A stretch of DNA of 61,423 nt from Candidatus Thermoplasmatota archaeon. Its GTDB lineage: Archaea; Thermoplasmatota; SW-10-69-26; JACQPN01; JAJPHT01. The notes beneath the pieces are model-generated. The model saw nothing but the letters and a program-made list of their open reading frames with translations. It was not told the DNA's origin and made no database searches. Below are positions 29,980 to 32,895 of this stretch, piece after piece. The translations under genes were made by a program, and so were the position numbers. Positions within the stretch are counted from its first letter, which is position 1. Every line of letters starts with the position of its first letter. The DNA lies in contig DATLGO010000096.1 of the NCBI GenBank assembly GCA_035540375.1, positions 1-61,423 of the forward strand, read 5' to 3'.

Positions 29980-30636
29980 ATGCAGCCGTTCACCCAGGAC
30001 CCCATCCAGGCCACCAAGACGGGAACCACGACGGTCGGCATCGTCTGCAAGGACGGCGTCGTCATGGGCGCCGACATGCGCGCCACGATGGGGCACCTCA
30101 TCTCCCACAAGGAGACCCAGAAGCTCTTCCGCATCGACGACCACCTCGGCATGACCATCGCCGGCCTCGTCGGCGACGCGCAGGTCCTCGCCCGGTGGCT
30201 CACCGCGGAAGTCGAGCTCTACAAGGTCAAGCGCAACGCCGACATGAGCGTCAAGGCCGCGGCGACCCTGATGAGCAACGTCATGAACCAGCGCAAGTTC
30301 GCGCCGTTCTACGTGCAGCTCCTCGTCGGCGGCATCGACCTCGAAGGCGGGCACATGTACTCCCTCGACGCGGCCGGCGGCTCCATCCCCGACAAGTACG
30401 CGACGACGGGCTCCGGCTCGGTCTTCGTGTACGGCGTCCTCGAGGACCGCTACGAGGACGACCTGAGCGTCGACGACGGCCTGAACCTCGCGATCCGCGG
30501 CATCAGCGCCGCGATGAAGCGCGACAGCGCCTCGGGCGACGGCATGTCGGTCGCGGCCATCACCAAGAAGGACGGATTCAAGCGCCTCGAGAAAGAGGAG
30601 ATCGACCGCAGGAAGAAGAAGATGGGCCTCAAGTAA
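29980..30636 (+). CDS. psmB: Proteasome beta subunit
   Basis: 218 residues. A 15-residue propeptide ends in TKTG, and the mature chain would begin at Thr16 ([20 protein letters not shown]), the N-terminal nucleophile, with Asp and Lys of the active site in [12 protein letters not shown] and the following KLFRI region. [16 protein letters not shown] and the tail [13 protein letters not shown] are also typical. It forms the catalytic rings of the 20S proteasome. The alpha subunit is not in this window. A hairpin spanning the stop codon and U-rich tracts follows. Confidence 0.97.
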
Positions 30637-30668
30637 GGCCCATCTTTTCCCTGTTTTCTCCTCTTTTC
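30621..30668 (+). terminator. Stop-codon-spanning hairpin plus U-rich terminator of psmB
   Basis: GATGGGCCT (30621-30629) pairs perfectly with 30636-30644 around the loop CAAGTA, so the TAA stop lies in the hairpin. It is followed by TTTTCCCTGTTTTCTCCTCTTTT (several T runs up to 30667), which fits both intrinsic and aCPSF1-dependent archaeal termination. The gene for aCPSF1 is the next one downstream. Confidence 0.7.
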
Positions 30669-30708: not shown

Positions 30709-32619
30709 ATGGGTGTCGAAGACCTGCTCCGCGAGATCTCCGAGGAAGTCAAGAAGGAGATCCCGGCCTCCGTCGAGATCACGGACATCGAATTCGAGGC
30801 CGCCGTCCTCGTCATCTACACGAAGCACCCCGAGCGCTTCGCCTCCGACGAGGACCTCGTCCGCCGCCTCGCGAAGAAGCTGCGCAAGCGCGTCGTCGTG
30901 CGCCCGGACCCGAGCGTCCTCGCGCCGCTCGAGAAGGCCGAGAAGCGCGTGCGGGACATCGTTCCCGCCGAGGCGGAGATCACGGAGCTCTATTTCGAGC
31001 CCGACATCGGCGAGGTCATCATCGAGGCCCGCAAGCCCGGTCTCGTCATCGGTCGGCACGGCTCCACGCTCAACGACATCAAGAAGGAGATCGGCTGGGC
31101 GCCGCGCGTCGTGCGCACGCCCCCCATCCCGTCGAAGACGGTGAAGGAGATCCGCGACTATCTGCGCACGGTCTCCGACGATCGGAAGGACTTCCTCCGC
31201 AAGGTCGGCCGCCGCATCTACCGCGGCTCCGTGAAGGAGGAGCAGTGGGTCCGCTGGACGAGCCTCGGCGGCTACCGCGAGGTCGGCCGCTCGTGCCACC
31301 TCCTGCAGACGCAGGACTCGAAGATCCTCATCGACTGCGGCGTCAACTTCTCGAACGACGACAAGGCGACCCCCTACCTGCACCTCGGCGAGGTCTGGCC
31401 CCTCTCGAGCCTCGATGCGGTCGTGCTCACGCACGCCCACATGGATCACTGCGGCCTCATCCCGCTCCTCTACAAGTACGGCTACGACGGGCCCGTGTAC
31501 TGCACGCCCCCGACGCGCGACCTCTCGGTGCTCCTGCAGATGGACTACATCAAGATCGCCGCGGCGGAGGGCAAGAAGCCCCCGTACGAGTCCGACCACA
31601 TCCGCAAGTGGGTCCAGAACGCGATCACGCTCGACTTCGGCGACACGACCGACATCGCGCCCGACGTGAAGCTCACGTTCTCGAACTCGGGCCACATCCT
31701 CGGATCCGCGGTCTCGCACTTCCACATCGGCGACGGCTTCTACAACGTGTGCTGCACGTCGGACATGAAGTACGAGCGCACGTGGCTCTTCAACCCCACG
31801 AACAACAAGTTCCCGCGCCTCGAGGCCCTCATCATGGAGGCCACGTACGGCGGGCGCAACGACTTCCAGCCGACCCGCCAGCAGGCGACCGAGCAGCTCA
31901 AGGAGATCATCGCCCGCACGATCAACCGCGGGGGGCGCGCGATCATCCCGTGCTTCGCGGTCGGCCGCAGCCAGGAGGTCATGATCGTGATCGAGGAGCT
32001 CGTGAAGCGCGGCGACATCCCGCGCGTCCCGACCTACCTCGACGGCATGATCTGGGAAGCGACCGCGATCCACACGGCGTACCCGGAGTACCTGAACAAC
32101 CAGCTCCGCAACCAGATCTTCCACGAGGGCGAGAACCCGCTCCTCTCGGACATCTTCATCCGCGTCGACTCCCAGGAGACGCGCCGCAAGATCCTCGCCT
32201 CCGAGGAGCCCTGCATCATCCTCGCGACGTCGGGCATGATGACGGGCGGCCCCGTCATGGAGTACTTCAAGGAGTGGGCGGGCGACCGCCGCTCCACGCT
32301 CGTGTTCGTCGGTTTCCAGGCCGCGGGCACGCTCGGCAAGCGCGTCCAGCAGGGCATGGGCGAGCTCCCGATGGCCGAGGGCGGCAAGAGCCGCGTCCTC
32401 CGCATCGAGTGCGGCGTCGAGACCATCGACGGCTTCTCGGGCCACTCCGACCGCCGGCAGCTCATGAACTACGTGAACAACATCTCGCCGAAGCCCGACA
32501 AGGTCATCACGATGCACGGCGAGGAGTCGCGCTGCGTGGACCTCGCGTCGTCCATCCACAAGAAGTACCACATCCAGACGTGGGCGCCCTACAATTTGGA
32601 AACGATTCGCCTCAAGTAG
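30709..32619 (+). CDS. aCPSF1 / FttA, KH-domain beta-CASP ribonuclease and transcription terminator
   Basis: 636 residues. Two N-terminal KH domains (about 1-70 and 75-145, with VIGRHGSTLNDIKKEIGW) precede the metallo-beta-lactamase core: LTHAHMDHCGLIPLL, SNSGHILGSAVS, CTSDMKYE, then the beta-CASP insert and GFSGHSDRRQL, VITMHGEESRC. The protein cleaves nascent RNA at U-rich sites and releases RNA polymerase. Length and order match the archaeal family. It ends in the motif LETIRLK; the last codons and stop are part of a 65-bp palindrome that is repeated just downstream. Confidence 0.97.
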   Translation: MGVEDLLREISEEVKKEIPASVEITDIEFEAAVLVIYTKHPERFASDEDLVRRLAKKLRKRVVVRPDPSVLAPLEKAEKRVRDIVPAEAEITELYFEPDIGEVIIEARKPGLVIGRHGSTLNDIKKEIGWAPRVVRTPPIPSKTVKEIRDYLRTVSDDRKDFLRKVGRRIYRGSVKEEQWVRWTSLGGYREVGRSCHLLQTQDSKILIDCGVNFSNDDKATPYLHLGEVWPLSSLDAVVLTHAHMDHCGLIPLLYKYGYDGPVYCTPPTRDLSVLLQMDYIKIAAAEGKKPPYESDHIRKWVQNAITLDFGDTTDIAPDVKLTFSNSGHILGSAVSHFHIGDGFYNVCCTSDMKYERTWLFNPTNNKFPRLEALIMEATYGGRNDFQPTRQQATEQLKEIIARTINRGGRAIIPCFAVGRSQEVMIVIEELVKRGDIPRVPTYLDGMIWEATAIHTAYPEYLNNQLRNQIFHEGENPLLSDIFIRVDSQETRRKILASEEPCIILATSGMMTGGPVMEYFKEWAGDRRSTLVFVGFQAAGTLGKRVQQGMGELPMAEGGKSRVLRIECGVETIDGFSGHSDRRQLMNYVNNISPKPDKVITMHGEESRCVDLASSIHKKYHIQTWAPYNLETIRLK

Positions 32620-32648
32620 AGGCGAATCGTCGGAAAATTGGAGGGTGC
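32584..32648. repeat. 65-bp palindrome across the aCPSF1 stop codon, copy 1
   Basis: Positions 1-14 of this element pair with 52-65 and positions 19-29 with 37-47, leaving a symmetric GGA/GGA internal loop and a 7-base loop that contains the stop codon. The first 36 bases encode APYNLETIRLK and TAG. It aligns without gaps to 32672-32736: 46 of 65 positions are identical. Six of the changed pairs are compensatory. It probably forms an RNA hairpin at the mRNA 3' end. Confidence 0.85.
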
Positions 32649-32670
32649 GAACGAGCCCGCAGGCTCGTTC
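32649..32670. repeat. Perfect hairpin with CGCA loop between the two palindromes
   Basis: GAACGAGCC-CGCA-GGCTCGTTC is a perfect 9-bp inverted repeat that sits exactly between the two 65-bp copies. The same CGCA loop recurs in the hairpin cluster at 50743-50879. Confidence 0.75.
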
Positions 32671-32671
32671 A

Positions 32672-32736
32672 GCGCCGTATAACCTGGAGACGATCCGGCT
32701 CAAATAGGCCCGGATCGTCGGAAGGTCATACGGCGC
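32672..32736. repeat. 65-bp palindrome, downstream copy 2 with an orphan coding tail
   Basis: It still reads APYNLETIRLK-stop with nine silent differences from copy 1, although no gene precedes it. It folds into the same two-part hairpin. A competing hairpin, TACGGCGC (32729-32736) with 32742-32749, would use its 3' arm. It may be the remnant of the 3' end of a diverged aCPSF1 gene left after gene replacement or duplication. From 32620 to 32895 there is no protein gene. Confidence 0.85.
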
Positions 32737-32895
32737 GACCGGCGCCGTAGGTCCCACCGTCGCCGTCAGACTGCACAATCGAGTTTACGGGCTCGCCGGG
32801 TGCACCTTCGCCGGGGCGGGGACGCAGGTGCGGCGCCCGACGCTCAAGGGCATCACCACAAAGGTTTCATTTTCCATCCGCCTGCCTCGCACATC

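Follow-up and report, generated by a model that had tools for sequence, protein, structure and literature searches.

The locus analysed here raises the question of why the gene for aCPSF1/FttA is followed by a second copy of its own palindromic end. The window, by which we mean the whole stretch of 61,423 nucleotides that was analysed, comes from the metagenome assembly of a Thermoplasmatota archaeon (genome G000; L-numbers denote individual loci), and the palindrome copies were taken as assembled. The gene (30709 to 32619; like the features of its end described below, on the forward strand) is an open reading frame of 636 amino acids with KH_TffA, metallo-beta-lactamase, beta-CASP and RMMBL domains (Pfam PF17214, PF10996 and PF07521). 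A proteasome beta gene lies directly upstream, and its own stop codon is spanned by a perfect 10-bp palindrome (AAGATGGGCC-TCAAGTAA-GGCCCATCTT, 30619-30646) followed by a T-rich run. That palindrome resembles a terminator that overlaps the stop, and no second tail accompanies it.

At the aCPSF1 end, the present gene tail (T, 32584-32619) reads APYNLETIRLK-stop and forms the 5' arm of a first hairpin, the 3' arm being an inverted tail copy directly after the stop codon (T', 32620-32648). A second hairpin (H, GAACGAGCC-CGCA-GGCTCGTTC, 32649-32670), perfect over its 22 nt, ends 1 nt before an orphan tail (T2, 32672-32707), which still reads APYNLETIRLK-stop and is followed by its own inverted copy (T2', 32708-32736). 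A possible third, decayed tail start, GCGCCGTA, equal to the first 8 nt of T2, is seen directly in the sequence at 32742-32749; this match is weak and may be due to chance. The two tails are separated by 52 bp, which leaves no room for an open reading frame.

A first, sequence-only reading of this DNA had described a duplicated 65-bp palindrome, and our recomputation confirms it. Copy 1 (32584-32648) and copy 2 (32672-32736) align without gaps and are identical at 46 of 65 positions, with two-sided paired changes at exactly the element positions it had listed as compensatory swaps (6/60, 9/57, 12/54, 13/53, 24/42 and 27/39). Six further pairs differ, two of them kept paired by a one-sided change and four unpaired in one copy; compensation between the copies is strong yet partial. 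A GGA/GGA mismatch is retained in both. Within the 36 coding nucleotides, stop included, every difference is silent, as had been claimed, although there are eight (positions 6, 9, 12, 13, 18, 24, 27 and 33) and not nine, and the tails share 71% DNA and 100% protein identity. The key feature of the locus is the 22-nt hairpin H between the palindromes, which the earlier reading had left out of its unit. Copies 1 and 2 fold at -38.8 and -42.9 kcal/mol, respectively, and the 88-nt unit at 32584-32671 folds at -56.5 kcal/mol (z = -10.1). Over a span of -36 to +52 around the stop, the aCPSF1 end has a z-score of -6.9, the lowest among 763 sampled gene ends of the genome (median -0.2), which excludes chance as the source of the structure.

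Relatives of the organism do not share this arrangement at aCPSF1. Neither the palindrome nor a second tail was found in the family-mate (one genome, 83% aCPSF1 identity) or in the other order members, so that the conserved stem and the orphan copy that the earlier reading had suggested looking for in close relatives are both absent there. Inverted-repeat scores at the aCPSF1 end were 14-22 in order members and most class members, compared with 36 in the window's genome; one class member, G005, reaches 30. Its aCPSF1 3' flank (L023) is hairpin-rich, with a repeated unit having ACGAACC...GGTTCGT stems and broken by an N run, and no second tail was seen in that flank.

The same layout was found, on the other hand, at further genes of the window's own genome. 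About 1.1 of its 3.1 Mb was scanned by comparing the last 60 nt of each gene with the next 350 nt, and of 752 gene ends, 13 reached a tail similarity score of at least 32, where about one was expected. Low complexity or plain tandem repetition, as in the genuine simple tandem at L255, accounts for several of them. Three genes stand out beyond the low-complexity, plain tandem and chance-level cases, namely aCPSF1, EF-1alpha (L283) and L284, an unrelated protein gene. Each has an inverted tail copy after its stop, and all three ends are within the top 11 of 763 for folding (chance about 2e-6). At EF-1alpha (...AAGLCLDLEER-stop), a 25-bp T is followed by a 12-bp T', by H (GCACGAACC-CGCA-GGTTCGTGC), by one base and then by a T2 having a single, silent difference. 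L284 has T, T' and T2 without H, and its orphan lacks a stop. Simple tandem duplication was considered for the aCPSF1 layout, and is ruled out by the different flanks and the silent-only divergence.

As a control, 1193 gene ends outside this genome were compared in search of tail repeats. Five strong ones were found: two at aCPSF1, two in repeat proteins, and one at another gene in a Micrarchaeota locus (a secreted or pilin-like protein, L182 2640-2990), where a 54-bp tail copy lies 166 bp downstream. The TPR and repeat-protein matches (L179 214-982, L147 and L309) were set aside as internal repeats. We do not claim aCPSF1 as a unique target, because conserved genes are over-represented partly through conserved tails staying recognisable. 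The architecture is matched in part at tRNA-Phe (L270 15500-16000, contig C18 of G000), which has partial tRNA-Phe copies on both sides; the copies carry hairpins of H-like sequence (ACGAATC...GATTCGT) between the anticodon arm and the T arm, within an array of anticodon-arm repeats.

Hairpins of the H type have 9-bp stems and a CGCA loop, and belong to a lineage-specific family with a CCYGCRGG core. With paired stems, 16 such hairpins are intergenic in the sampled 1.1 Mb, and their density is about 25 per Mb in loci of this genome compared with about 1 per Mb elsewhere (about one in 1.9 Mb of other genomes). In all three cases in which H and T2 occur together (aCPSF1 and EF-1alpha in G000, EF-1alpha in the family-mate G001), H ends 1-2 nt before T2. 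Since this placement is very unlikely by chance, H is read as the junction of an insert. The clearest example of the architecture is EF-1alpha of G001 (L315, about 1050-1330), where a 60-bp tail is followed by a hairpin and T-rich run, by a double hairpin (GCGCGGCC-GCCA-GGCCGCGC / GGCCGAACC-CGCA-GGTTCGGCC) ending 2 nt before the orphan, and by a 60-bp orphan. Tail and orphan are identical at 55 of 60 positions, all five differences are silent, and each copy has its own downstream hairpin and T-rich run. A decayed orphan remnant is present at EF-1alpha of G002, and no clear EF-1alpha orphan was found in more distant relatives.

To place the aCPSF1 locus in a wider context, about 220 further aCPSF1 3' flanks were surveyed. 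Displaced second tails were found in two other Thermoplasmatota families (G025 and G034) and in Micrarchaeota (L182, L171 and L179). In G025, the gene tail lies in a perfect inverted repeat of 14 bp that spans the stop; a second hairpin comes next, and then N-(frameshift)-ETIQLR-stop, while G034 has a short insert followed by the remnant IRLR-stop. In L182, a hairpin array precedes DSRAPMNLDTIRIK-stop; its sister L179 has a shorter tail remnant, and L171 has an exact 38-bp tail repeat around 38 bp. The insert hairpins of L171 and G034 are not significant (z about 0 and -1), and these inserts may reflect a different process. In another Micrarchaeota genome, G447 (L242; G447:C1 8441-13268), the 3' end of aCPSF1 is repeated exactly and in direct orientation over 166 bp, and the two copies enclose about 4.6 kb with genes for Fic, radical SAM and methyltransferase proteins; no integrase is among the recognised genes of G447. 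This is a possible integrated element without a recognised integrase, and its repeat may likewise be due to another process. In G568 and G455, the second tails proved to be contig overlaps or strain variants and not insertions, and a search for long-range second tails in Thermoplasmatota gave none beyond noise. The insert units are mostly 44-220 bp, those in unrelated lineages being uniformly under about 220 bp.

The native copy can be told from two of these relatives. Six family members of G034 have the flank TAATTTATAAATAA... immediately after their aCPSF1 stop; in G034 itself, this flank comes after the orphan instead. Similarly, the flank that L182 shares with L179 follows the orphan and not the present gene end. 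The orphan in both therefore sits in the native flank, as the old end in the old place, and the present tail came with the insert. By analogy with these two loci, copy 2 in the window is probably the displaced native tail of aCPSF1, and copy 1 an inserted, synonymously recoded one.

The kind of divergence between tails and orphans bears on their history. Across the four well-preserved orphans, 23 of 24 differences are silent (8 at aCPSF1 in G000, 5 at EF-1alpha in G001, 1 at EF-1alpha in G000 and 10 at aCPSF1 in L182), compared with about 22% silent among random single changes in the aCPSF1 tail. The copies therefore diverged as functional gene ends and were later brought together, in agreement with the earlier suggestion that both had evolved as working ends. 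Free drift of an orphan produced by local duplication is ruled out, because the differences are almost all silent.

The tail of the gene, in many cases as the 5' arm of a hairpin that spans the stop, then a hairpin and then the displaced old tail form an architecture that recurs at essential genes and in unrelated archaea. We think it probable that it arose by a short insertion unit, of 88 bp at aCPSF1, with the 3' ends of conserved genes as its target; the unit would have replaced the gene's tail and displaced the native one. Such a unit would carry the synonymously recoded last 12 codons (stop included), which form the 5' arm of the first hairpin T-T', and then H. It would join the gene in frame ahead of the native tail, keeping the protein intact and leaving that tail downstream as an orphan. 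The unit may move, or be copied, as a hairpin-forming piece; candidate movers would be a recombinase acting in trans or recombination with incoming DNA. The second palindrome at aCPSF1 might then reflect an earlier round at the same site. The sequence-only reading had offered a diverged aCPSF1 gene that replaced the original and left its tail. Replacement of the tail, with the original left behind, fits our data; the short length of the displaced piece, in every case just the last ~5-20 codons, makes replacement of the whole gene less likely.

The unit itself has no transposase, endonuclease or recombinase and is too small to encode a casposase (Cas1). In the 97% complete genome, tyrosine recombinases (PF00589) gave no match, not even an Xer-like one, while all 14 control genomes were positive. 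A search for tail-bearing elements in viral contigs (IMG/VR), phages and plasmids, using tail-mimic patterns, gave nothing meaningful; two matches, MNLETIRLN and MNFETIRLN, lie inside frames with stops. A diversity-generating retroelement was rejected, as the differences are silent and not A-to-N. Integron attC sites were likewise rejected, as no RYYYAAC/GTTRRRY boxes were found by eye and the genome lacks PF00589.

The units may instead be remnants of larger mobile elements, of the tyrosine-recombinase or casposon type, that integrated at the 3' ends of genes through an att site restoring the tail, and whose interior was later lost. Thaumarchaeal elements occupy 3'-distal regions of protein genes and casposons sit at EF-2 (PMC6563490), the G447 locus has its exact repeat around kilobases of cargo, and the partial tRNA-Phe copies with H-like hairpins would fit att arrays. 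We nevertheless regard this origin as unlikely, given that the genome has no PF00589 protein, that G447 itself lacks a recognised integrase, and that the inserts in unrelated lineages are all small, whereas random deletion should also leave kb-scale ones. It is less probable still that homologous recombination with DNA from a related lineage replaced the gene, or its end, and finished in an illegitimate join at the hairpin, no dedicated element being involved. This would account for the silent-only divergence and for the separate terminator-like flanks of both EF-1alpha ends in G001; it does not explain why the displaced piece is so short in genes of more than 400 codons, why the same hairpin type adjoins the orphan each time in this family, or why T' goes with T in several lineages. 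Both of these explanations share the central inference that the gene's tail is foreign and that the native one was displaced.

Explanations that dispense with a foreign tail fare worse. Template-switch errors at hairpins (direct-inverted-direct copying) would give the order T-T'-T2 and the exact 38-bp repeat of L171, and repeated correction would keep the arms paired, giving the swaps without selection. Indeed, such correction inside a palindrome can yield covariation, and the compensatory swaps here may come from correction of a quasi-palindrome rather than from RNA function; the GGA/GGA mismatch in both copies argues against pure correction of this kind. As an origin of the whole locus, the mechanism is very improbable, as it cannot give 29% divergence, silent-only in the coding part, in an orphan freed from coding selection. 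Furthermore, H is a repeat family and not a local copy, and the EF-1alpha copies in G001 have different downstream flanks. Finally, the earlier reading had suggested an autoregulatory 3' element, and an aCPSF1 RNA element for autoregulation or mRNA ending might have been duplicated and kept. The high stability of the hairpin across the stop and its two-sided pair changes would suit it, as would the stop-spanning hairpin of the upstream proteasome gene. An Rfam search of the aCPSF1 end gave no match, and no T-rich run follows either palindrome copy. Because order relatives lack the palindrome and the layout is shared with EF-1alpha, an unrelated protein gene and, partly, tRNA-Phe, this is not an aCPSF1-specific RNA element, and we find a functional role of that sort hardly credible.

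Returning to the inserted unit that we favour, its closest parallel is in fungal mitochondria, where mORF elements (Allomyces atp6; Glomus atp6, atp9, cox2 and nad3) replace C-termini in phase, with the native end downstream (PMC3630166). Both systems have an in-phase inserted C-terminus and a displaced native one (the native position being seen in G034 and L182, and presumed for the window), and the values of 71% DNA and 100% protein identity at aCPSF1 are close to those between mORF-inserted ends and the ends of a close relative (64-81% and 94-100%; PMC3630166). They differ in that the mORF elements span hundreds of bp and carry a LAGLIDADG or GIY-YIG endonuclease ORF (PMC3630166), whereas the archaeal units are tens to about 220 bp of hairpins with no ORF and a tail of 5-20 codons, and no homing endonuclease ORF lies between the window's tails. 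Among archaeal integrated elements, 14 of 68 thaumarchaeal ones are in 3'-distal regions of protein genes, one of which was shown to restore the stop, and casposons target EF-2 (PMC6563490). Here the likeness lies in the targeting of conserved gene ends, including translation factors, in the restored gene end, in the direct repeats of that end bounding the insert and in tandem re-use of one site. Those elements are, in contrast, kb-sized, with an integrase or casposase and a short att/TSD, whereas the units described here are tiny and hairpin-based.

H also resembles REP/REPIN extragenic palindromes in being a short, repeated intergenic hairpin family, often just after genes; no REP is known to us that copies the end of its target gene or pushes a native tail aside. 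Mitochondrial double-hairpin elements consist of two GC-rich hairpins; they are small, look mobile and lie in or near organelle genes. The archaeal units share with them the paired GC-rich hairpins near genes and differ in their tail mimicry, which we know of in no double-hairpin element. In a limited literature search, we found no description of a tiny, hairpin-only, endonuclease-free form at aCPSF1 or EF-1alpha. It is tempting, as a tentative suggestion that we hold to be somewhat doubtful, to see these units as a distinct class of tiny, hairpin-only archaeal insertion units, in which the 5' arm of the first hairpin supplies the final codons of a conserved host gene and so makes the insertion harmless. 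Such a class would span at least two archaeal phyla, with genes for translation and RNA processing as repeated targets, and its units would be moved by an enzyme that perhaps acts on folded single-stranded DNA.

If the insertion reading is true, small mobile DNA replaces gene ends not only in fungal mitochondria, where this is known, but also in archaeal chromosomes, with hairpins standing in for the endonuclease. The most conserved genes would then be natural targets, since their ends are ones that can be mimicked from one species to another. The locus also carries a caution, in that strong covariation in a stop-spanning palindrome need not mean RNA function. It offers as well a searchable signature, a tail followed by a hairpin and a second tail with silent-only changes.

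Other repeats were noticed in the course of this analysis. At L263 429-710 (contig C11), 77 bp from upstream of tRNA-Arg and from its 5' end are present as a partial copy, with a run of hairpins between this copy and the intact gene. An interspersed intergenic multi-hairpin repeat of ~200 bp (GTGGCACGAGCC-TGCG-GGCTCGTGCCAC ... GGGGGCTATCCGCCCCC ...) is present in several copies in G000 (L285 about 15300, L289 about 15570, L292 about 8580 and L266 about 8500). The same genome has minisatellite-like CCGGGACCGGGCGTCGGG arrays at L261 (about 7350), L265 (about 16120) and L277 (about 1140-2135).
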